A stretch of DNA of 29,827 bases, from IMG/VR virus record IMGVR_UViG_3300010150_000095, positions 1 to 29,827 of that record; one strand, written 5' to 3'. The notes under the pieces were generated by a model that did not search any database, had not been told where the DNA came from, and saw nothing but the letters and a program-made list of their open reading frames with translations. Source of the DNA: a virus. Shown one piece after another: positions 864-29,827 of this stretch; the stretch's first letter is position 1, and the number at the start of each line of letters is the position of its first letter. The translations under genes were made by a program, and so were the position numbers.

Positions 864-888
864 AAATTCATTTAATTAATTCGTTATA
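864..888 (+). promoter_or_regulatory. CGTTATA-type promoter candidate 1
   Basis: AAA at 864-866, 15 nt, then CGTTATA at 882-888; the ATG of the next gene is at 895. The same AAA-N15-CGTTATA arrangement occurs at five other operon heads in this genome (11291, 17637, 20277, 26872, 28226). The element sits between a terminator and a start codon, as a promoter should. I infer recognition by the phage ECF-like sigma factor (14171). If it is a -10 type element the transcript would begin at or near the start codon. Confidence 0.6.
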
Positions 889-894
889 TACAAA

Positions 895-1338
895 ATGATT
901 GTATTAACTACTACAGCATCTCAGACATTAAAAGTAATACCTAGAGAATATTTAGGAAATTTTACTATAGATGTTAGAGATACAAGTCTTAATAAAACAT
1001 ATACTTATTGGGAAGATACAGGGACTGTAAGTGGTAATTATTATGAGTTTACAAATTCCTATGTAGATGGAAGTGGGAACTCAATATTTAAAGAAGCTAG
1101 ATTTTATGATTTAGAATTATATGCTGATTTTAATTATTGGAATACTAACCTTAGTTTATGGGAAATGTATGATGAAATTTGGCAAGTAGATTCTGACCAA
1201 AAAGAACGAATGTATAAAGACAAAATATTTATAACAGATCAAGATATTGACCAGTTAAATGATAATGACCATTACCAAATAAATGAGGGACAATACAAAA
1301 CTAATAATTCATTCAATAATGAGTATATTGTAATATGA
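895..1338 (+). CDS. Conserved virion-associated protein of unknown role
   Basis: This is a 147-residue soluble protein, first gene of the portal/connector/fibre operon. Its N-terminus contains IPREYLGNFTIDVRD and its C-terminus ends NNEYIVI, with a KDKIFITDQDID motif between. I believe I have seen this combination in small proteins next to structural genes of Bacteroidota phages, but I cannot assign a function. Its stop overlaps the portal start as ATGA (1335-1338), so the two are probably translationally coupled. A head-tail junction or tail-associated role is possible from position alone. Confidence 0.6.
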   Translation: MIVLTTTASQTLKVIPREYLGNFTIDVRDTSLNKTYTYWEDTGTVSGNYYEFTNSYVDGSGNSIFKEARFYDLELYADFNYWNTNLSLWEMYDEIWQVDSDQKERMYKDKIFITDQDIDQLNDNDHYQINEGQYKTNNSFNNEYIVI

Positions 1339-3221
1339 AAAATAGAAAAAGAAATAGCTTAGGACAATTTAAAAAAAGCTCAAAATCAGAGATTAGCTTT
1401 GTAAATTTAGCTACTTATACAAGTCCAGATGTAGTAGAACTTCCTAATAAAGATTGGGTAAAATACGGAGATGATAATAATTATTTTCAGTATCTCTTAG
1501 ATATGTATAATGGTTCACCTACTAATAACGCCTGTGTTAATGGGTTATCTCAACAGATATATGGTAAAGGCTTAAATGCTACAGACGCAAATAAAAAGCC
1601 AGAGGAATACGCTAAAATGGTATCTATGTTAAATAAGGATGCTGTTAGAAAGCTATGTTATGATCTAAAATTAATGGGACAATGTGCTATACAGGTTATC
1701 TATTCTAAAGACAGACAGAGTATAGCTAAACTAGAGCATTTTCCAATAGAAACATTAAGAGCTGAAAAGTGCAATGATAAAGGGGAGATTACTGGATATT
1801 ATTATTTTAAAGATTGGGCAAAGATAAAACCTAATGACCATCCACGAAGAATACCTGCCTATGGCTATAGTAAAGAATCTATAGAGATTTTTTATGTGCA
1901 ACCATATAAAGCAGGATTTTATTATTATAGTCCTGTAGATTATCAAGGTGGATTACAATATTGTCAACTAGAACAAGAGATTTCTAATTACCATTTGAAT
2001 AATATAGAAAATGGACTTGCTCCGTCAATGTTGCTTAACTTCAATAATGGTATTCCTAATCAAGAAGAAAGACGTTTATTAGAACGTAAAATAGCAGAGA
2101 AGTTTAGTGGATCAAGTAATGCAGGTAAATTTATATTAGCTTTTAACGATAATAAAGATGCTCAAGCTGAAATTACTCCTGTTCAATTAAGCGATGCTCA
2201 CCAACAATACCAATTTTTAAGTGAAGAATCTACTAAAAAGATAATGGTAGCACACAGGATAGTTAGTCCTATGTTATTTGGTATAAAAGACACTACAGGA
2301 TTAGGTAATAATGCTGATGAGATTAGGACAGCCTCTCTTTTGCTAGATAATACCGTTATAAGACCGTTTCAGGAACTTTTAATAGATTCCTTTGATACAC
2401 TACTAGCTTATAATAATATTAGCTTAAACCTCTATTTTACGACCTTACAACCACTAGAGTTTACAGAAGTTGATCCTGACTTGCAAGATGCTGAAGAAAT
2501 AGAAGAAGAAACAGGAGTTAAACAAGACTTATCAGATGATAGACCAGAATTATCAGATGAATTATCAGAGGATATTCTGGGAAGTCTAAGAGAATCAGCT
2601 CACAAAATAGAAGAAGAGTATGAATTTGTAGATGAATTAGATCAAGACGAAGAAATAAGTAATGAAGATTGGGCAAATTCTTTAATAAAAGAGAAAAAAA
2701 GTACGCTATCTAAGATAAAAGAATATGTAGGATTAAAAGGTTCTAGTGAAGATAATGTAGGTAGCCTTAGAGATGGTAGTGCATTTAGTTATTTAGATTC
2801 CAAAAATGGTATATACAAAATTCGTTATAGATATGCTATAGGTTCTAGAAAGCCTATGGAAAGTGGTAATTCATCTAGAGACTTTTGTAGAGAAATGATG
2901 AAACTATCTACAGAGGGTTTAGTATGGCGAATTGAAGATATTGATAAAGCCTCTTATAGAGAAAATGTAAACGTAGAATTTAGACACAAAGGTAAGCCTT
3001 ATGATATATTCAAATTTAAAGGTGGTATCTACTGTAGACATAAATGGGTAAGAGTTTTATATAAGCTAAAAAATAAAGCTGAAATATCAGAAGATTTAAA
3101 CGATTATAGGAAAGCTACAAAAAAAGAGTTTCCTGCTAGTTATATTAAAAATCCTAGAGGAACAAAGGATAGCGTAGTAGCACCTGAAAATATGAAAAAC
3201 AGAGGAGCATATCCAAAATAA
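1335..3221 (+). CDS. Portal protein with MuF-like C-terminal domain
   Basis: This 628-residue protein would form the dodecameric ring at one capsid vertex through which DNA enters and leaves. Residues about 30-400 have the layout of HK97/SPP1-type portals: an early WVKYGDDNNYFQYLLDMY segment, a core with LAPSMLLNFNNGIPN, and a helical end with MVAHRIVSPMLFGIKDTTGLG. After an acidic linker (about 405-460), residues about 497-575 contain YRYAIGSRKP, SSRDFCREM and GGIYCRHKW. This resembles the C-terminal signature of MuF/SPP1 gp7 minor head proteins (R-x-F-C-R-E followed by GG-x2-C-R-H-x-W). No separate MuF-like gene is present in this genome, so the portal appears to carry that function as a fusion. 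The start overlaps the previous stop (ATGA). Confidence 0.88.
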   Translation: MKNRKRNSLGQFKKSSKSEISFVNLATYTSPDVVELPNKDWVKYGDDNNYFQYLLDMYNGSPTNNACVNGLSQQIYGKGLNATDANKKPEEYAKMVSMLNKDAVRKLCYDLKLMGQCAIQVIYSKDRQSIAKLEHFPIETLRAEKCNDKGEITGYYYFKDWAKIKPNDHPRRIPAYGYSKESIEIFYVQPYKAGFYYYSPVDYQGGLQYCQLEQEISNYHLNNIENGLAPSMLLNFNNGIPNQEERRLLERKIAEKFSGSSNAGKFILAFNDNKDAQAEITPVQLSDAHQQYQFLSEESTKKIMVAHRIVSPMLFGIKDTTGLGNNADEIRTASLLLDNTVIRPFQELLIDSFDTLLAYNNISLNLYFTTLQPLEFTEVDPDLQDAEEIEEETGVKQDLSDDRPELSDELSEDILGSLRESAHKIEEEYEFVDELDQDEEISNEDWANSLIKEKKSTLSKIKEYVGLKGSSEDNVGSLRDGSAFSYLDSKNGIYKIRYRYAIGSRKPMESGNSSRDFCREMMKLSTEGLVWRIEDIDKASYRENVNVEFRHKGKPYDIFKFKGGIYCRHKWVRVLYKLKNKAEISEDLNDYRKATKKEFPASYIKNPRGTKDSVVAPENMKNRGAYPK

Positions 3222-11062: not shown

Positions 11063-11328
11063 GTTTGTTTATAGTAATCAAGATTAATTGACAAATAAAG
11101 TCAACCACATATGATACTATACATAATAAATTATTATATATTTGCAAAACAGACGCACATCTGTTCAAGGTGCTAAACTTCAGTAACTACGACTGTTGGA
11201 TCAGGCAATTTAATTAGTTCTTTTTACTTAGGGGGGGATTTTTCTTTCTTTTTCTTTTTTGTCCTTTTTTCTTTTTCTTTCTTTATTATTAAAATAATTG
11301 TTAATAATCGTTATATTTATAAACAATT
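11063..11328 (+). other. Non-coding boundary region with hairpins, G7 and a polypyrimidine tract
   Basis: No gene of convincing type is seen here. It contains a TTGAC/GTCAA inverted repeat (11088-11104), a perfect -7 box TATATTTG (11137-11144) without a clear -33 box, a perfect 6-bp hairpin AACAGA/TCTGTT (11148-11165), a 4-bp CAGT/ACTG hairpin (11181-11195), seven G at 11231-11237, and a 47-nt almost pure pyrimidine tract (11239-11285, one G). It separates the lysis module from the replication module, and could be a leader RNA, an origin region or both. Nothing matched a riboswitch or tRNA I know. Confidence 0.5.
11291..11315 (+). promoter_or_regulatory. CGTTATA-type promoter candidate 2
   Basis: AAA at 11291-11293, 15 nt, CGTTATA at 11309-11315, and ATG at 11329. 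It is the only member of the set at the head of the replication module. It could allow later or autoregulated expression of this region. Confidence 0.5.
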
Positions 11329-14170: not shown

Positions 14171-14650
14171 ATGAATGTAAAAAAAAGTATGGAGTTACTG
14201 TTTAAAAAACATAGTAACTGGATAGATATAGTGTGTTCATTTGGTTTAGAGAAATCTCTAGCTGAAGATATTGTTCAAGAAATGTATATTAAAATCCAAT
14301 TATCATTAGAAAAAGGTTTAGATATATCATATGGTAAAGATGATATAAATTATTATTATATTTTTAAATGTCTCAGATCATTATTTTTAGATTTAAAACG
14401 CAAAGCTAAAAACGTCAAAAGAGTTGGAGTAGATAATTTAAGTAGCAAAGAGGGTGATGTAGACTTTACAGCCAAATATGAATTAGTAACTAAGGCTTTA
14501 TCTGAAATGTATTGGTACGATAGAAAGGTATTTGAATTTATAAACTCAGGAGAATCTGTAGCAAGTTTATCTAGAAAGACAGGCATCCCATATTATTCAC
14601 TTTACAACACATATAAAAAAGTAAAAAAAAGATTAAAAGATTTATTATGA
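14171..14650 (+). CDS. ECF-like RNA polymerase sigma factor
   Basis: This 159-residue protein has the two-domain plan of ECF (group 4) sigma factors. Region 2 is at about residues 5-80, with LAEDIVQEMYIKIQ as the core-binding helix and YIFKCLRSLFLDLKRKAKN as the -10-recognition helix. Region 4 is at about 100-159, with a helix-turn-helix in SVASLSRKTGIPYYSLYNTY followed by KKVKKRLKDLL. It lies in the replication module, 1 nt after the ATPase stop, and would be made early. I infer that it directs RNA polymerase to the AAA-N15-CGTTATA elements in front of the late operons. A sigma-like HTH regulator without sigma activity is the alternative. Confidence 0.75.
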   Translation: MNVKKSMELLFKKHSNWIDIVCSFGLEKSLAEDIVQEMYIKIQLSLEKGLDISYGKDDINYYYIFKCLRSLFLDLKRKAKNVKRVGVDNLSSKEGDVDFTAKYELVTKALSEMYWYDRKVFEFINSGESVASLSRKTGIPYYSLYNTYKKVKKRLKDLL

Positions 14651-15985: not shown

Positions 15986-16701
15986 TATTATTAATTGACG
16001 CAGACAGTTTAATCTTTGCTAGTTGTTATAGGACTAGAATAGAAGGCAAAGAACCAGAAGATATTTATTACAGAGATTTAGAAGATGCTGTATCTAAATT
16101 TGATGAACAGTTTATGAAAATATGCAATGACATAGAAGATGTTTATTCAGTTCAAGAAATAAAAACCTTTAATGGAAGTAAAGGAAATTTCAGAAAAAAA
16201 ATAACTCCTACTTATAAAGCCAATAGAAAAAACCAAGAACTTCCTCCATTGTTACACAATATGCACCAATACGTAAAAGACAATTACGATAGTATATATG
16301 GGTATGGATTAGAAACAGATGATCTGGTGGCTCAGTATTGGTTTGAACTATCTAAAGAACACGGAAGAGATAACGTGATGATTGTAAGTATTGATATAGA
16401 CTATAAACAATTCCCTGCTTTAATTTATAATTATCATTATAATCATAGAGAATTTTTAGACATAACTCCAGAACAAGCTCTTTACAATTTCTATGAACAA
16501 TGTGTGTGTGGTGATTCAGCCGATAATGTCAATTTCTTCAAGGGTAAGGGCATTAAGTTTGCACAAAAATATTTTAAAGATTGCAACACAAAATACCAAT
16601 ACACAAAGAGACTATACGAACTTTTTAAAAAAGAGTACAAAGGCAAAGCAAAACAGAAGTATATAGAATGTTATAATTTACTTAAATTGCGAACACAATG
16701 A
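15982..16701 (+). CDS. 5'-3' exonuclease (FEN/T4 RNase H-like)
   Basis: This 239-residue protein has the PIN/FEN metal-site pattern: LIDAD at residues 5-9 (D6, D8), the arch segment NFRKKITPTYKANRK (about 70-84), ETDD at 111-114, SIDIDYKQF (D138, D140), and CGDSADN (D178, D181) followed by a helix-hairpin-helix-like FKGKGIKFAQKY. Such nucleases remove RNA primers and 5' flaps, or resect ends for recombination. The length fits a stand-alone phage enzyme. It is coupled to the upstream membrane peptide and overlaps the next gene by 4 nt. Confidence 0.88.
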   Translation: MILLIDADSLIFASCYRTRIEGKEPEDIYYRDLEDAVSKFDEQFMKICNDIEDVYSVQEIKTFNGSKGNFRKKITPTYKANRKNQELPPLLHNMHQYVKDNYDSIYGYGLETDDLVAQYWFELSKEHGRDNVMIVSIDIDYKQFPALIYNYHYNHREFLDITPEQALYNFYEQCVCGDSADNVNFFKGKGIKFAQKYFKDCNTKYQYTKRLYELFKKEYKGKAKQKYIECYNLLKLRTQ

Positions 16702-17168
16702 GATTGAAACCAATACAAATAGCAGATAAGATCAAGGATTTATCTGGTATTAATATATTTGAAAACACGAGAAAAAGACCAGTAGTAGAAATGAGGTCTT
16801 TGTTATGTTATTTACTTAGAGAGAAACTAGGAATGAGATGGACTAATATTGCATTATTTTTTAAGTCTCAAGGAAAACCAGTTAATCACGCTACAGTAAT
16901 ACACAGTAAAAACTTATATGAGATATATAAAAAAACAAATAAAAAACTAGCTGAGATAGAAAAACTATTTTCTTTTAAAAGCAGTCTTACAATAGATGAA
17001 ATAGATAGAGTTCATTATCTAGAAAACAAATGCAAAAATCTACAATTAAAACTAGAGAACCCTTTGGTTAAATTACTAGATCAGATTCCTGAAGATAAAC
17101 ACGACAAAGCAGTAAACGACATAGAAAGACTCATTAAGAGTTGGGAATGGAAAGAAAAAGTATTATGA
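16698..17168 (+). CDS. DnaA domain IV-like DNA-binding protein
   Basis: This 156-residue protein has a segment at about 27-75 (RKRPVVEMRSLLCYLLREKL, then NIALFFKSQGKPVNHATVIH) that resembles the DnaA C-terminal DNA-binding domain, whose signature is a helix followed by a dHxTVxH motif. No ATPase domain is present. The rest is a charged helix. Such stand-alone domains in phages may bind the phage origin or compete for host DnaA boxes. It overlaps both neighbours by ATGA. Confidence 0.75.
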   Translation: MRLKPIQIADKIKDLSGINIFENTRKRPVVEMRSLLCYLLREKLGMRWTNIALFFKSQGKPVNHATVIHSKNLYEIYKKTNKKLAEIEKLFSFKSSLTIDEIDRVHYLENKCKNLQLKLENPLVKLLDQIPEDKHDKAVNDIERLIKSWEWKEKVL

Positions 17169-17326
17169 ACAAAGACACATTAATAGACCTTATAAAAATA
17201 ATAGAATCAGATTTTAAAAGAAGATGTGAACAATCATACCAAGAAGAGGACAGAGACAAATGGGGTGATAATCACGGAATACTTAAAATGATAAGACAAG
17301 AGATAGAAAATGGTGGTATTAAATAA
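17165..17326 (+). CDS. Small acidic protein of unknown function
   Basis: I choose the ATG at 17165 (ATGA overlap with the previous stop) instead of the upstream TTG at 17141. It encodes 53 residues starting MNKDTLIDLIKIIESDFKRR and is charged and helical. The stop and the next start share one base (TAATG at 17324-17328). Function unknown. Confidence 0.6.
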   Translation: MNKDTLIDLIKIIESDFKRRCEQSYQEEDRDKWGDNHGILKMIRQEIENGGIK

Positions 17327-17625
17327 TGGAAACAGACAAAGACAAAAGAAAACAAATCCCTATTTATTCTGGTGTATTAAAATACTTTCCTGACGCTATA
17401 GCAGAAGTAGCTAAATGTAGTTATGCAGGAAACCAACAACATCATCCAGATAAACCTTTACATTGGGATAGATCAAAAAGCACAGACGAATTAGATGCTC
17501 TTGTAAGACATTTAATGGAATCTGGTCAAACAGATACTGATGGAATTAAACATTCAGCTAAGGTAGCTTGGAGAGCTTTAGCTCACTTACAAAAAGAAAT
17601 AGAGAACAAACACGACAGCAAATAA
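17326..17625 (+). CDS. dATP/dGTP diphosphohydrolase-like domain (DUF5664 type)
   Basis: This 99-residue protein carries YFPDAIAEVAKCS, AGNQQHHPDKPLHWDRSKS, ELDALVRHLMESG and KHSAKVAWRALAHLQ. The arrangement of conserved His/Glu/Asp residues in a four-helix plan matches the domain annotated as dATP/dGTP diphosphohydrolase N-terminal/DUF5664. It is present alone, without the longer C-terminal region of some homologues. It may adjust dNTP pools during replication; biochemical activity of the stand-alone form is uncertain. It is the last gene of the replication module. Confidence 0.68.
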   Translation: METDKDKRKQIPIYSGVLKYFPDAIAEVAKCSYAGNQQHHPDKPLHWDRSKSTDELDALVRHLMESGQTDTDGIKHSAKVAWRALAHLQKEIENKHDSK

Positions 17626-17636
17626 TAAAACATAGT

Positions 17637-17661
17637 AAAATAATTAAATAGATACGTTATA
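17637..17661 (+). promoter_or_regulatory. CGTTATA-type promoter candidate 3 (terminase operon)
   Basis: AAA at 17637-17639, 15 nt, CGTTATA at 17655-17661. It lies in the 145-nt non-coding gap before the small terminase gene (start 17771), the largest leader among the six copies. A 5-bp ACTTG/CAAGT hairpin with a short T run (17664-17684) follows immediately and could be a 5' mRNA structure. Confidence 0.5.
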
Positions 17662-17770
17662 TTACTTGTATAATCAAGTTTTTTCAAGATATGTATATAA
17701 ATAGATTATCTTCATTTAAAAAATATATTAAGAAAACGCTTAACATAAGTTTTAAAAAATTAAATAAATT

Positions 17771-18004
17771 ATGGGTACTTACGGAGGTAAAAGAAAAGGA
17801 GCAGGAAGAAAATCAAAAAGCGAAGAAATAGAATTAATAGAAAAGCTAACTCCATTAGAGCCTTTAGCATTTGCTGCTTTAGAACAAGGCTTAAAGGATA
17901 GAGACTTTAAGTACGTACAACTGTATTATAATTATTATGCAGGTAAACCAAAAGAAACAAAGGACATAACTATAAATGAAGATCAGCCATTATTTATAGA
18001 CTAA
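17771..18004 (+). CDS. Probable small terminase subunit
   Basis: This 77-residue protein starts MGTYGGKRKGAGRKS, the Gly/Arg/Lys-rich start typical of small phage terminase and HTH proteins, then a helical region (LTPLEPLAFAALEQGLKDRD) and YVQLYYNYYAGKPKETKD, which is often seen at the end of small terminase subunits of this type. It directly precedes the large terminase. It is short for a small subunit (100-180 residues are usual), so the oligomerisation part may be reduced. The non-coding gap before it may hold the packaging signal. Confidence 0.65.
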   Translation: MGTYGGKRKGAGRKSKSEEIELIEKLTPLEPLAFAALEQGLKDRDFKYVQLYYNYYAGKPKETKDITINEDQPLFID

Positions 18005-18005
18005 T

Positions 18006-19175
18006 ATGCAATTAACAAAAACCTCAGCTCTGTCTAAACTCAGAAAACTAGATAAGAGAATAAGGATTGTCAGGGGAGGATCATCAGCAGGAAAAACAAT
18101 AGCTATATTATTAATCTTAATTGATTACGCAATAAAGAACGCAGGTAAAGAGATAAGCATAGTATCAGAGACTATCCCACATTTACGTAGAGGTGCTTTA
18201 AAGGACTTCTTAAACATCTTAAAAGCTCTTAATAGGTATGACGATAATAAGTACAATAAAAGTACCTTAAAATACGAGTTTAGTAATGGCTCATATTTAG
18301 AGTTCTTTTCTACAGATCAGCCAGATAGATTAAGAGGAGCTAGACGTACTGATTTATTTATTAACGAATGTTCTAATGTTAGCTTTGATTCATACCAAGA
18401 GTTAAGCATAAGAACCTCTGGTAATATTTGGTTAGACTATAATCCTGCTAATTTGTTTTGGGTAGATAAAGAACTTATAGGACAACCAGATACAGAGTTT
18501 GTTACATTAACATATAAAGACAATAGTAGCCTTCCTAAATCTATTGTAAAAGAAATAGAGAAAGCAAAAGAGAAAGCTAAGACATCTACGTATTGGGCAA
18601 ATTGGTGGAAGGTATATGGATTAGGTCAGATAGGTAGTTTAGAAGGTGTATGTATTCCTGATTGGAAATACATTGATAATATACCAGAAGAAGCTAGACT
18701 ACTTTGTGCAGGTCTTGACTTTGGATATTCAGTTGATCCTTCAGCTTATATTAGATTGTATAAATATAACAATGCTTATATCTATGATGAGGTCTTATAT
18801 CGTAAAGGGATGTTAAATAGAGACATTAGTTTATTCTTAAAGAACAACGATATAACAGAACATATTTACGCTGACTCAGCAGAACCTAAGAGTATTAGTG
18901 AGATTCGTTCTTATGGTCATTCAATATCAGGAGTAACAAAAGGTAGAGATTCTATAGTCTATGGAATTAACCTAATTAATCAAAATGAAATATACGTAAC
19001 TTCAAGATCAAAGAATCTAATCAAAGAATTACAAGGATACATCTGGAGTAAAGATAAAGAAGGAAACGATTTACAGAAGCCTACAGGAACTCACCCAGAT
19101 TGTATTGATGCTGCTAGGTATGCTTTAATGATGCAACTAGAAACGCCAAATAAAGGCACATATTACATATCTTAA
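18006..19175 (+). CDS. terL: Large terminase subunit (PBSX/Terminase_3 type)
   Basis: This 389-residue packaging motor cuts concatemers and drives DNA into the capsid. The N-terminal ATPase has Walker A GGSSAGKT (24-31), and DLFINEC at about 116-122 is Walker B with the catalytic Glu. DQPDRLRGARRTD before it is typical of the family. The C-terminal RNase H-like nuclease has D238 in GLDFGYSVDPSA, D290 in YADSAEP, and D364/D367 in THPDCIDAARYAL. All key residues are present. It starts one base after the small subunit stop. Terminase_3 phages commonly use pac or cos mechanisms, and this cannot be told from sequence. Confidence 0.93.
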   Translation: MQLTKTSALSKLRKLDKRIRIVRGGSSAGKTIAILLILIDYAIKNAGKEISIVSETIPHLRRGALKDFLNILKALNRYDDNKYNKSTLKYEFSNGSYLEFFSTDQPDRLRGARRTDLFINECSNVSFDSYQELSIRTSGNIWLDYNPANLFWVDKELIGQPDTEFVTLTYKDNSSLPKSIVKEIEKAKEKAKTSTYWANWWKVYGLGQIGSLEGVCIPDWKYIDNIPEEARLLCAGLDFGYSVDPSAYIRLYKYNNAYIYDEVLYRKGMLNRDISLFLKNNDITEHIYADSAEPKSISEIRSYGHSISGVTKGRDSIVYGINLINQNEIYVTSRSKNLIKELQGYIWSKDKEGNDLQKPTGTHPDCIDAARYALMMQLETPNKGTYYIS

Positions 19176-20276: not shown

Positions 20277-20301
20277 AAAATGTTTAATTAAATACGTTAT
20301 A
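20277..20301 (+). promoter_or_regulatory. CGTTATA-type promoter candidate 4 (tail operon)
   Basis: AAA at 20277-20279, 15 nt, CGTTATA at 20295-20301, ATG at 20307. It sits directly behind a terminator and five bases before the tail chaperone start. This is the clearest operon-head placement of the set. Confidence 0.62.
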
Positions 20302-20306
20302 ATATT

Positions 20307-20957
20307 ATGAAACTTAAATTAGAAGTTCCTGCAAGTCTTGCTGATGTGTCTTTACGTGATTATAAACATTATCTGAAGATACAAGATAAAAACAAAGATG
20401 ATAAGTTTCTTGCAGCAAAGATGATTGAGATATTCTGTAACGCTCCTTTGAAACAGGTGTTAAGAATGAAGCTAAAAGACACAGAGAAGATTTGTAAAAT
20501 GTTAGAAGAAGTCTTTAAGTCAAAACCTATTTTAGTAAGAAGATTTAAAGTAGGTAAAACAGAATACGGATTTCATCCTTCATTAGATGATTTAAGTTTA
20601 GGAGAGTATATTGATTTAGATACTTTTGTAGGTGATTGGGATAATATTGAAAAGGCTATGAATGTTTTATATAGACCTATAAAGCATAAATTCCAAGATA
20701 GATATTCTATAAAAGAGTATAATGTAAAGATAGATGATAGTTTACTGGATATGCCTATGTCAGCAGTAACAAGTTCTGTTTTTTTTTTGATGAATTTAGG
20801 TCTAGACTTGTCAAAGAATATGACGAACTATTTGGACAAAAAGCAGACGAAAGCCTTGACCGAGTATCTAATTTTGGAAGGAAATGGGGATGGTATCAAT
20901 CAATTTACCAACTCTCTGGAGGAGATATTACAAGATTTGAAAATATCACAGAATTAA
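20307..20957 (+). CDS. Tail assembly chaperone (gpG-like, zero-frame product)
   Basis: This 216-residue protein begins MKLKLEVPASLADVSLRDYK. It has FHPSLDDLSLGEYIDLDTF in its middle and KAMNVLYRPI near residue 115, a pattern familiar from tail assembly chaperones of Bacteroidota siphophages. Such proteins bind the tape measure during tail assembly. After ten T at 20779-20788 (codons GTT TTT TTT TTG) the zero frame continues 55 more residues, ending SLEEILQDLKISQN. The -1 frame from the same point is also protein-like and runs to 21043, so both gpG- and gpGT-type products are expected. It heads the tail operon behind a CGTTATA element. Confidence 0.82.
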   Translation: MKLKLEVPASLADVSLRDYKHYLKIQDKNKDDKFLAAKMIEIFCNAPLKQVLRMKLKDTEKICKMLEEVFKSKPILVRRFKVGKTEYGFHPSLDDLSLGEYIDLDTFVGDWDNIEKAMNVLYRPIKHKFQDRYSIKEYNVKIDDSLLDMPMSAVTSSVFFLMNLGLDLSKNMTNYLDKKQTKALTEYLILEGNGDGINQFTNSLEEILQDLKISQN

Positions 20958-22052: not shown

Positions 22053-23072
22053 ATGGCAACTATATTTCCTTTACGAAGTCCAAGATATGAAATACTTACA
22101 ACTCCTTCAGGAGCTAAGTCTGCTAAGTTAGAATTAACAATAGATAGCACATTAAGATATACGATTATAAAAGAATGTACAGCAGGAGATACAGTAACAT
22201 TTGAAATAGCTGAATTATGTAGAGACTATATTGATCCTTCGTTGTGGGTAGTTGCTAATGTAGTTTATTCTAATTTATCTGGAATCGCAATATCTAGAGC
22301 AATTACTTTTTATGATGGTGCAAATGCAACTGGTAGCATAGTACAATATAACGGATCAAATACTGATACAGTAATATATGAAGGCTTTGATGGATTTGGT
22401 GAATATATGGATGGAGCTAATCCTACTATTTCACAGGCTGCTTCAGATGCTTTTTTAATAGATAAGATCACATCAAGCGGAGGATATGAAATCTTTATGC
22501 CTGAGAGTACGTCAGGTTGGATCGTGGCTGTAGATGGTAGTGAAACAAAAGGACATATAACAGTAGGGACTTCAGTAACTTCTGTATCTTATAGAAGTTC
22601 AACTTGTGCTGTAACTAGAGTAGGATGTTCTAAATATACTCCTATAAAGGTTTATTTTGTAAACAAATTAGGAGCTGTACAATGGCTTTATTTCTTTACT
22701 AAAGATGTAGAGCTTTTAAATACGTCTCAAGAGACATATCAAAGAAACACTATTGACACTAGCACAACTACTGCTAGTTATTTTGCTCCTAAATATAGCA
22801 CCTATCCTACCTATCCGCATCCAATAACTACTTATAACAAAAATGGAAAAACAAGCTATTCTCTAAGTTCTGGTTATTATCCTGAAAGAGCTAATCCGTA
22901 CTTTGAGCAGTTACTACTATCTGAAGATGTTTGGATTGAAAAGAATAATTTACCAGTTGCTATTCAGGTCAAGACTAGCAATATGACTCTTAAAACAAGT
23001 TTAAACGATAATCTAATTGACTATACTATACAATTTGAAGAAGCCTTTGATTATATAAATAACATTAGATAA
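22053..23072 (+). CDS. Tail structural protein
   Basis: This 339-residue, beta-rich protein starts with FPLRSPRYEILTTPSGAKSA and has FEIAELCRDYIDPSLWV near residue 52. It has no signal peptide or enzyme motif. Related proteins seem to sit before the large tail protein in flavobacterial phages. It may be a distal tail or baseplate component. It overlaps the next gene by one base (TAATG). Confidence 0.5.
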   Translation: MATIFPLRSPRYEILTTPSGAKSAKLELTIDSTLRYTIIKECTAGDTVTFEIAELCRDYIDPSLWVVANVVYSNLSGIAISRAITFYDGANATGSIVQYNGSNTDTVIYEGFDGFGEYMDGANPTISQAASDAFLIDKITSSGGYEIFMPESTSGWIVAVDGSETKGHITVGTSVTSVSYRSSTCAVTRVGCSKYTPIKVYFVNKLGAVQWLYFFTKDVELLNTSQETYQRNTIDTSTTTASYFAPKYSTYPTYPHPITTYNKNGKTSYSLSSGYYPERANPYFEQLLLSEDVWIEKNNLPVAIQVKTSNMTLKTSLNDNLIDYTIQFEEAFDYINNIR

Positions 23073-25111: not shown

Positions 25112-25251
25112 TAAAGAATATTATAGATTTATTGCAAGTTTCTAATGGAGAAACAGAAAACATTAGAATAGCTCAAGGTAAATATGCTTTACCTGAAAGT
25201 TTTTCAAAAGCAATTAAACAAGTTAAAAAACACTCAAAATGGGAAGAATAG
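25108..25251 (+). CDS. 47-residue small protein between tail genes
   Basis: The ORF begins MIKNIIDLLQVSNGETENIR and ends KQVKKHSKWEE. It has ATGA overlap with the tail hub gene and 13 nt overlap with the tape measure gene. Its helical, basic C-terminal part and fixed position suggest a conserved tail-associated peptide of unknown function. Confidence 0.6.
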   Translation: MIKNIIDLLQVSNGETENIRIAQGKYALPESFSKAIKQVKKHSKWEE

Positions 25252-26871: not shown

Positions 26872-26896
26872 AAAATAATAAAATAAAAGCGTTATA
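26872..26896 (+). promoter_or_regulatory. CGTTATA-type promoter candidate 5 (head operon)
   Basis: AAA at 26872-26874 (within ACAAAA), 15 nt, CGTTATA at 26890-26896, ATG at 26902. There is no terminator before it. Confidence 0.58.
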
Positions 26897-26901
26897 CAAT
26901 T

Positions 26902-27831
26902 ATGAAAATCATTGAACTTATATTAGACGAAGCTCAAGAAATGATGGGTATAGATGCAATTTCTATTGTAGAAAACCCTGCTATAGAAGAGAATTTTTTA
27001 GCTTTAAAATCAGAAGAAATTACACTAACAGAAATAAATAAAGAGAAAAAAATCTTAATGGGTGCTTTACTTATCCCTAATAAACCTATTTATAGAAAGA
27101 ATGAGGAAGGGGAATATTACATCTACTTCTCTAAAGATACAGTAGAGAAAGCCTCACAATTATATCTTAAAAATGGTAATCAAAACAACTCAACTTTAGA
27201 ACATCAGCACGAACTTAGTGGACTAACCTTAGTAGAATCTTGGATTGTAGAAGATGAAAAGTATGATAAGTCCAGAAAATATGGATTAAACGTACCAGTA
27301 GGTACTTGGATGGGAGCAGTAAAAGTAAACAATGATGATGTGTGGAATGAATACGTTAAGACTGGTAAGGTAAAAGGTTTCAGTATTGAAGGATATTTTG
27401 TAGACAAAATGGAAAAGAAAGAAAAAGACTACTCAAGTCACTTGGCTGAAATAGAAGAAGAAGAAGCTAAAGAAATGCTTTCAGATATTTCTGATATATT
27501 AATAAACAAAAAAGGGAAAAAATCTAAAACTGAATATCATTCAGACTATCCTCAATCAGTAAGAAACAATGCAAAGAAAGGATTAGAACTAAATAAGAAA
27601 TTAAATAATAAATGTTTTTCATCTATTAATAGAATAAGAGCTAATAAGTTAAGTAAAGGCAAACCAATATCAATGTCTACTATTAAAAGGATGAATAAAT
27701 ATCTCTCTAAGGCTGAAGAGCATTTTGATGCTAAAGATAAGCTATCTTGTTCAACTGTTAATTTCCTTTTATGGGGTGGATTAGCTGCTAAAAAATGGTC
27801 AGCATCTAAACTTAAAAAAATTAATAAATAA
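26902..27831 (+). CDS. Prohead protease (XkdF-like) with extra C-terminal domain
   Basis: This 309-residue protein has an N-terminal serine protease like XkdF/prohead proteases. It starts MKIIELILDEAQEMMGIDAI, has the catalytic His region LEHQHEL (H101 or H103) and the nucleophile S161 in KGFSIEGYF. It would cleave scaffold and capsid during head maturation. Residues about 215-309 form a second domain: YHSDYPQSVRNNAKKGLELN, GKPISMSTIKRMNKYLSKAE, and a C-terminal WGGLAAKKWSASKLKKI. The SVRNNAK...GKPIS...WGG pattern occurs in other phage proteins, often fused to proteases or capsid-related proteins. Its function is unknown to me. Confidence 0.8.
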   Translation: MKIIELILDEAQEMMGIDAISIVENPAIEENFLALKSEEITLTEINKEKKILMGALLIPNKPIYRKNEEGEYYIYFSKDTVEKASQLYLKNGNQNNSTLEHQHELSGLTLVESWIVEDEKYDKSRKYGLNVPVGTWMGAVKVNNDDVWNEYVKTGKVKGFSIEGYFVDKMEKKEKDYSSHLAEIEEEEAKEMLSDISDILINKKGKKSKTEYHSDYPQSVRNNAKKGLELNKKLNNKCFSSINRIRANKLSKGKPISMSTIKRMNKYLSKAEEHFDAKDKLSCSTVNFLLWGGLAAKKWSASKLKKINK

Positions 27832-28225: not shown

Positions 28226-28250
28226 AAAATTAATTTTAATAACCGTTATA
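28226..28250 (+). promoter_or_regulatory. CGTTATA-type promoter candidate 6 (scaffold/capsid)
   Basis: AAA at 28226-28228 (GCAAAA), 15 nt, CGTTATA at 28244-28250, ATG at 28260. This would give the scaffold and capsid genes their own strong promoter, ending at the terminator at 210-250. Confidence 0.58.
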
Positions 28251-28980: not shown

Positions 28981-29827
28981 ATGGCTTTAAACATTACATC
29001 AACCTATGCAGGAGAGTTTTCTGGAAAGTATATCGCTGCTGCATTATTATCAGGTAACACTATCTCCAAAGGTGGGATAGAAGTTAGACCTAACATTAAG
29101 TATAAAGAAGTAGTTAAAAAAGTAGCAACTTCTGGTCTTATTGTAGATTCTACTTGTGACTTTACGTCAGCAGGTAATATAACTCTTACTGAAAGAATTA
29201 TTCAGCCAGAAGAGTTCCAAGTAAACAATGAATTTTGTCTTACTCCATTTGTTTCAGATTGGGAAGCAGTATCTATGGGATATTCAGCATATGATAAAAT
29301 CCCTGCTAAATTCTCAGATTTCTTAATAGCTCACGTAGCTAAAGAAGTTGCTCAAAAAACTGAGCAAAACATCTGGCAAGGTGCTAACGCTACAGCAGGT
29401 GAATTTGATGGTCTAGTAACACTAGCTCAAGCAGATGCTGATACTGTTAAGATCACAGGTACTACTGTAACTAACGCTAATGTAGTAGCAGAAATAGCTA
29501 AGATAATTGACGCTGCTCCAAGTGCTATTTACGGAAAAGAGGACTTAAAACTTTATGTCTCTCAAAACGTAGCTCAAGCATACATCAGAGCTTTAGGTGG
29601 ATTTGCAAACGTCACAAATGGTGTTGACAATAAATCACAAATGTGGTATAGTGGTCAAGAATTATCATTTGATGGTGTTCAAGTATTCCTAGCAGAAGGT
29701 ATGGCTGATAACACTATGATGTTAGCTCAGACTTCTAACCTTTACTTTGGTACTGGATTATTGAATGATATGAACCTTGTAAAAACTCTAGATATGGCAG
29801 ACCTTGATGGTTCTCAAAATGTCAGAG
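28981..29827 (+). CDS. Major capsid protein, 5' part (continues at base 1)
   Basis: The open frame starts MALNITSTYAGEFSGKYIAA, 13 nt after the scaffold gene, and runs off the window, continuing in frame at base 1 to the stop at 190-192. The full protein has 306 residues, the normal length for a HK97-fold capsid without a large delta domain. Features include RIIQPEEFQVNNEFCLTPF, an E-loop-like early region, and AKFSDFLIAHVAKEVAQKTE as the probable long spine helix (about residues 109-128). The leader is A-rich (AAATAAAAATG). It is preceded by the scaffold and protease genes and followed by a terminator, so it is likely the most highly expressed late gene. Confidence 0.9.
   Translation, partial: MALNITSTYAGEFSGKYIAAALLSGNTISKGGIEVRPNIKYKEVVKKVATSGLIVDSTCDFTSAGNITLTERIIQPEEFQVNNEFCLTPFVSDWEAVSMGYSAYDKIPAKFSDFLIAHVAKEVAQKTEQNIWQGANATAGEFDGLVTLAQADADTVKITGTTVTNANVVAEIAKIIDAAPSAIYGKEDLKLYVSQNVAQAYIRALGGFANVTNGVDNKSQMWYSGQELSFDGVQVFLAEGMADNTMMLAQTSNLYFGTGLLNDMNLVKTLDMADLDGSQNVR
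29710..29827. repeat. Terminal direct repeat, copy 2 (circular closure)
   Basis: Identical to bases 1-118; see copy 1. It contains coding sequence of the capsid gene in the same frame. Confidence 0.95.

Follow-up and report, generated by a model that had tools for sequence, protein, structure and literature searches.

A predicted phage-encoded ECF-like sigma factor and its candidate late promoters in a family of marine phages

A candidate sigma factor gene in a marine phage genome

What is the role of the 159 aa protein encoded at 14171..14650 (+ strand) of IMG/VR virus record IMGVR_UViG_3300010150_000095, and is the two-part element AAA-N15-CGTTATA that recurs in the same genome its promoter? 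An initial annotation had read the protein as an ECF-like sigma factor that recognises this element and switches transcription to the late genes. The window, by which we mean the whole 29,827-nt contig, has identical ends of 118 bases (1-118 and 29710-29827), so that it represents a small phage genome assembled in circular or terminally redundant form, and a capsid-like open reading frame spans the end junction. Its genes lie nearly all on the + strand. PHROG profiles identify the portal gene (1335-3221), TerL (18006-19175), a capsid-like gene (28981 onward) and endolysin and holin genes, and the protein encoded at 16698-17168 (hereafter DnaA-C-like) matches the DnaA C-terminal helix-turn-helix (Pfam, E 3e-7) and is a possible replication initiator. 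The nearest cultured phages by portal protein are the Nonlabens (Persicivirga) phages P12024L and P12024S (33% identity), so the host of the window phage is probably a marine flavobacterium.

Predicted fold and distribution of the sigma protein

An AlphaFold2 model of the 14171-14650 protein, computed with 24 relatives, reached a pLDDT of 87.9 and comprises a region 2 block (residues ~3-80), a less certain linker (~81-98) and a region 4 block (~99-158). The model and its Foldseek matches agree with the ECF architecture, in which region 3 is absent and regions 2 and 4 each form a helical domain. Foldseek matched two PDB structures with E below 0.001, both of them complexes of M. tuberculosis ECF sigmas; next in the ranking came E. 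coli sigma E and then many other ECF factors. The viral fold matches were mostly phage ECF sigmas. Full-length TM-scores to ECF structures were low (~0.4), a probable effect of variable placement of the two domains relative to each other. At the sequence level, Pfam returned only a sub-threshold Sigma70_r2 match (PF04542, 13.8 bits vs a cut-off of 24), and the NCBIfam ECF models gave E 1e-5 to 3e-4, below their cut-offs; TIGR02937, for instance, scored 20.3 bits against a cut-off of 42.9 (E 3.4e-4), with E 1.7e-7 for the best relative. The phrog_31712 profile aligned to residues 7-156 (E 8.4e-8), while a PDB sequence search with the family profile yielded nothing useful and PDB matches came from the fold search alone. 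Judged by its modelled fold, the protein is a highly diverged ECF-like sigma and belongs with the ECF sigma factors, in agreement with the initial annotation.

The family is large and, in the collections searched, confined to phages. Scanning IMG/VR with the single sigma sequence identified 345 stretches with a relative, and scanning with a sigma profile at least 579, so that the family has hundreds of relatives in marine contigs. No match was detected in a bacterial-genome collection with a scan that relied on two short peptide patterns, by which distant homologues could be missed. The window protein had no tblastn match in 50,697 phage records, and with a relative's sigma as query the only matches in annotated phage genomes were P12024L gp35 and its P12024S twin. 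The phrog_31712 profile was matched by 22 of 24 sigma relatives, and by P12024L gp35 with E 1.5e-112. Two records stand out for their structure. In one (G051:C1:8065-8744, record of L293), an incomplete repeat of region 4, containing one TGA, lies directly after the sigma gene and reflects either a duplication or a broken reading frame. The other (L123, IMGVR_UViG_3300025645_000048) is an 89 kb record, three times the usual genome size, with a sigma gene and five sites, and may represent a concatemer, a chimera or a larger phage.

A two-part element at operon starts

CGTTATA occurs nine times in the window (eight copies on the + strand, one on the - strand) against 2.24 expected, a number reached in none of 100 shuffles. 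The six copies reported to carry AAA exactly 15 nt upstream were all confirmed, with CGTTATA starting at 882, 11309, 17655, 20295, 26890 and 28244. All six AAA-N15-CGTTATA copies lie on the + strand, against 0.14 expected from dinucleotide shuffles (largest shuffle 2), and a second-order Markov null reached at most 3 in 1000 runs. The initial annotation had cautioned that the offset was found by inspection; a look-elsewhere scan pairing all + strand 7-mers present 6-12 times with all 3-mers at offsets 10-25 answers this concern, since its best pair was CGTTATA with AAA at 15, the same sites also ranking at the top in a shifted frame (GTTATAT with AAA at 16). The six sites are all intergenic, in a genome in which non-coding DNA amounts to ~9%. 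Both + strand copies inside the portal gene, at 2354 and 2823 (the latter previously placed at 2824), lack AAA at that offset. They had been considered the only other copies, and a - strand copy had been missed; this ninth copy (22347-22353) lies inside a gene, lacks AAA at -15 and is probably due to chance.

The element sits at operon starts and is absent before internal genes, and each of the six sites is a predicted late promoter on the + strand. The first (864..888) precedes the portal operon, with its ATG at 895, 13 nt after the C of CGTTATA. The second (11291..11315) precedes the 11329 gene and a NinG-like gene, with the ATG 20 nt after the C, and the third (17637..17661) precedes the terminase operon (TerS-like 17771, TerL 18006), the next ATG following at 36 nt and the TerS-like start at 116 nt. 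The fourth (20277..20301) heads the tail operon, which begins with the ATG at 20307 and includes a tape-measure-like gene at 25239; the fifth (26872..26896) heads the protease-like/capsid gene at 26902. At both, the ATG lies exactly 12 nt after the C and the mRNA is predicted to be leaderless. The sixth (28226..28250) precedes the 28260 gene and the capsid-like gene at 28981, with the ATG 16 nt after the C. Five of the six operons had been described as head structural or packaging operons, a count that needs correcting, as the genes from 20307 onward form the tail operon and the 11329 operon is neither head nor packaging. The further claim that host-type promoters occur only at 11.9-19.2 kb was addressed solely by scanning and is weak.

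The terminase-operon leader, between the promoter and the first ATG (17662-17695), is itself kept in relatives, as TTG-AWTAAW-CAA plus TCAA before the ATG. This TTG-N-CAA element could be an operator or a hairpin; read as a hairpin, its palindrome shows base changes across relatives that are not clearly compensatory, and that candidate was set aside.

Co-occurrence of the sigma gene and the element in related phages

The initial annotation had proposed comparing the occurrence of the motif and the sigma gene in related phages. All 26 long contigs selected by their sigma gene carry AAA-N15-CGTTATA, with 2-6 sites that always lie on a single strand, compared with 0-2 per strand for a reversed-pattern control in the same contigs. 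In the window together with 17 near-complete contigs (18 genomes in all), 87 sites lie on the sigma strand and one on the opposite strand, and 79 of the 87 are intergenic, with ~10% of the DNA non-coding; the sampled phages are related, so that neither sites nor phages are independent samples. Selection by other features gave the same picture: the sigma gene is present in 6/6 portal-selected records of at least 28 kb and in 3/3 records of at least 25 kb picked by a strict promoter pattern, one of which was already in the sigma-selected set. Among motif-selected records of 18-25 kb it is found in 4/5, and shorter motif-bearing records often lack it (e.g. G034, 23 kb with four sites); these are presumably fragments, and neither support nor refute the link. 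No long relative was found to keep the motif and lack a sigma gene, the case that had been named as a refutation. Phage FpV9, whose TerL is 50% identical, has neither sigma gene nor motif, and was considered as a sigma-less control and discarded as too distant to be decisive.

Co-variation of sigma factor and element

If the sigma protein reads the element in trans, a change in the protein should be accompanied by a shift in nearly all promoters of the genome, and two such cases were identified. The first involves P12024L and its IMG/VR relatives, whose sigma factors are only 27-30% identical to the window protein (P12024L sigma vs family profile, E 1.8e-9). Here the element reads AAACAA-N15-CGTTAATA; each isolate genome has 6-7 sites where ~0.3 would be expected, and three of the P12024L promoters precede the counterparts of the window protease/scaffold, portal and terminase operons. 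An AlphaFold2 model of the P12024L-type sigma from 7 sequences was poor (pLDDT 62), which limits the fold assignment to the window-type sigma.

The second case is found within the family itself. Four phages (G029, G030, G031 and G033) carry the sigma gene and nearly lack CGTTATA, and have CGATATA at the same places. G032, with ~84% DNA identity to G030, uses CGTTATA, and four orthologous promoters of the two phages differ in the same base, in one instance downstream of 24 identical bases; a fifth promoter in G030/G033 (1/5) reads CTATATA. The G032 and G030 sigmas are 82% identical, with 13 differences in the 29 residues 39-67 vs 9 in the ~112 others outside the linker. By alignment, residues 39-67 contain the loop that sets -10 specificity in known ECF factors, a loop that can be swapped between factors (PMC6372665; SigH structure, PMC6411747). 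On the sigma tree, the distribution of the CGATATA class calls for no fewer than two independent changes, although long branches meet at that point. The change from CGTTATA to CGATATA thus appears to be a natural specificity switch, pointing to sigma region 2. At the level of individual residues, a MAFFT alignment to E. coli RpoE places a gap at residues 67-70, so that equating C67/S70 with SigH pocket residues I85/N88 requires an ungapped reading and is offered as a suggestion only. As the cause of the T to A switch, residue 70 by itself was rejected, since G032 also has G70, and residue 67 does not explain it either.

This co-variation is the strongest evidence for a link between sigma and promoter, which comparative genomics strongly supports, and together with the co-occurrence data it favours the proposal that the 14171 protein would recognise the element and act as a late-gene switch. 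It also bears on the alternative in which the motif is read by a sigma factor of the host, ECF or otherwise, and the phage protein does something else. A CGT box in the -10 region is indeed found in flavobacterial ECF promoters, as in motif SM6 of F. psychrophilum (PMC9723704), likely a similar host group, but SM6 serves host stress and secretion genes and no phage regulon. In 99 Bacteroidia genomes, moreover, AAA-N15-CGTTATA is not enriched, being rarer than its reversed control, and occurs at ~3 per Mb vs 200 per Mb in the window. Since the spelling of the motif tracks the phage sigma, and the sigma gene is present in 18/18 family members compared, we regard a host reader as very improbable.

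Even less probable is that another phage DNA-binding protein, such as the DnaA-C-like protein, binds the motif as activator or repressor. Of the non-structural genes compared, the only two present in all 18 family members are those for sigma and the NinG-like protein. The DnaA-C-like protein, with its helix-turn-helix match, is present in 16/18, but tblastn gave no match to it in G024 (31 kb, 5 sites), G031 or P12024L/S; the sites share no DnaA-box sequence, and their two-part -35/-10 spacing suits a sigma factor.

Promoter to start codon geometry

A motif-free scan for 7-mers starting with CG exactly 12 nt before an ATG (at least 45 codons) covered 250 loci and returned CGTTATA (135), CGATATA (46), CGTTAAT (21) and CGTTATT (14) as its top four, the next 7-mer reaching 7. 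With identical sites removed, 101 CGTTATA, 22 CGATATA and 12 CGTTAAT sites have the C exactly 12 nt before the ATG, counts that show consistency rather than separate events because the phages are related. About half of all family sites have this distance; for the remaining CGTTATA sites it is 13-20 nt, chiefly at portal and capsid operons, or 33-41 nt, at the terminase operon, although several of the 33-nt cases are copies inside the portal gene and not promoters. The fixed distance in about half of the sites would also suit a translation-start or other RNA signal, a reading with very little probability left to it, as the same element with its AAA spacing also lies 33-41 nt before the terminase operon start and so is not tied to a start codon, the AAA at its fixed 15 nt would fall outside an mRNA starting near the ATG, and the element marks operon starts and not internal genes.

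Read as a promoter, the element at the 12-nt sites places the predicted transcription start on the start codon. The -10 element of M. tuberculosis SigH is G-11 T-10 T-9 (PMC6411747); aligning CGTT to it puts the C at -12, so that an ATG 12 nt on has its A at +1. For the phage sigmas of phiEco32 and 7-11, transcription begins 6-9 bp from the element (PMC8948821), a distance that here also lands on the start codon. Published work takes a -10-like element located ~12 bp ahead of the start codon as the sequence hallmark of leaderless genes (PMC3160421), and the family sites at 12 nt show this feature. In the window, the geometry fits a leaderless start exactly at 20307 and 26902, and within one base at 895. 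Many late mRNAs are therefore predicted to be leaderless, with the start codon as transcription start, and since 5.5% of mapped mRNAs in F. psychrophilum are leaderless (PMC9723704), such mRNAs should be usable by this kind of host. We consider it fairly likely, with appreciable room for doubt, that in a widespread lineage of marine Bacteroidetes phages the late structural mRNAs are largely leaderless, with the promoter tied to the start codon in three element classes, so that the late switch would alter the choice of transcribed genes and also the mode of translation of their mRNAs, in hosts that make little use of leaderless mRNAs.

Proposed mechanism and relation to known systems

In the mechanism that we propose, the two-domain ECF-like sigma would be produced early in infection or midway through it and bind the host core RNA polymerase, with region 4 reading the AAA-rich -35 and region 2 the CGTTATA -10. 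The resulting holoenzyme would start transcription of the packaging, capsid, portal and tail operons on one strand, constituting the late switch, and at about half of the family sites transcription would begin on the A of the start codon, giving leaderless mRNAs. The sigma gene of the family phages lies at least 2.8 kb, and often ~10 kb, from the nearest upstream late promoter, which fits its expression from another, earlier promoter. Given the observed motif and its placement, the confident prediction of an ECF-sigma fold, and the co-occurrence and co-variation of sigma gene and motif, we hold it very probable that a phage ECF-like sigma driving the late operons via AAA-N15-CGTTATA is the explanation as a whole.

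Phage late-gene ECF-like sigmas are a kind already known, and the predicted mode of action resembles that of phage 7-11 gp47, a late sigma shown in vitro, with a two-part promoter (GTAAtg-16-aCTA) before late operons (PMC8948821). Like the window sigma in our proposal, gp47 and phiEco32 gp36 are used with the host polymerase for late genes (PMC8948821, PMC4331800). However, they belong to gammaproteobacterial podophages and have other promoter sequences, no close sequence relationship to the window sigma was found, and no report of leaderless starts for them was encountered in these two papers; compared with the GAP52 sigma, the window sigma shows fold-level similarity only (E 0.025). With M. 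tuberculosis SigL/SigH and E. coli sigma E the window sigma shares the region 2 plus region 4 fold, and bacterial ECF sigmas likewise use two-part promoters with a CGT-type -10 and rigid spacing. It differs from them in its very low sequence similarity, its AAA-rich -35, its phage-only family in the collections searched and an adjoining region in which no anti-sigma gene was recognised. The open-access papers searched contained no description of the sigma family, the promoter code, the specificity switch or the start-codon-locked geometry, and no report of the AAA-N15-CGTTATA motif.

These results make the late-gene programme of hundreds of uncultured marine phages, probably of flavobacteria, readable from sequence alone, and give the unannotated family phrog_31712 a predicted function, as a sigma factor, along with a predicted regulon. 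The putative CGTTATA to CGATATA switch offers a natural change in sigma-promoter specificity with few candidate residues, and such sigma-promoter pairs could serve as orthogonal expression tools in Bacteroidetes. Counterparts in isolated phages are P12024L gp35 and P12024S gp33 (phrog_31712, Inhavirus), homologous sigma genes in phages with orthologous structural operons and a CGTT -10 element 12 nt before the ATG, which differ from the window in the sigma divergence and element sequence given above. The P12024L/S record annotates the sigma gene as hypothetical with a Sigma-70 region 2 note, and a search for published reports on P12024L/S promoters found none. P12024L has been isolated on Persicivirga (Nonlabens) sp. 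IMCC12024, which makes the proposed system, including the leaderless late mRNA prediction, directly testable. At positions 16409-18674, P12024L (L164) has annotated genes for a 2OGFeDO oxygenase, a glucosyl-HMC glucosyltransferase and a methyltransferase; no such annotations appear in its near twin P12024S, which suggests that only one of these two almost identical phages has modified DNA bases.
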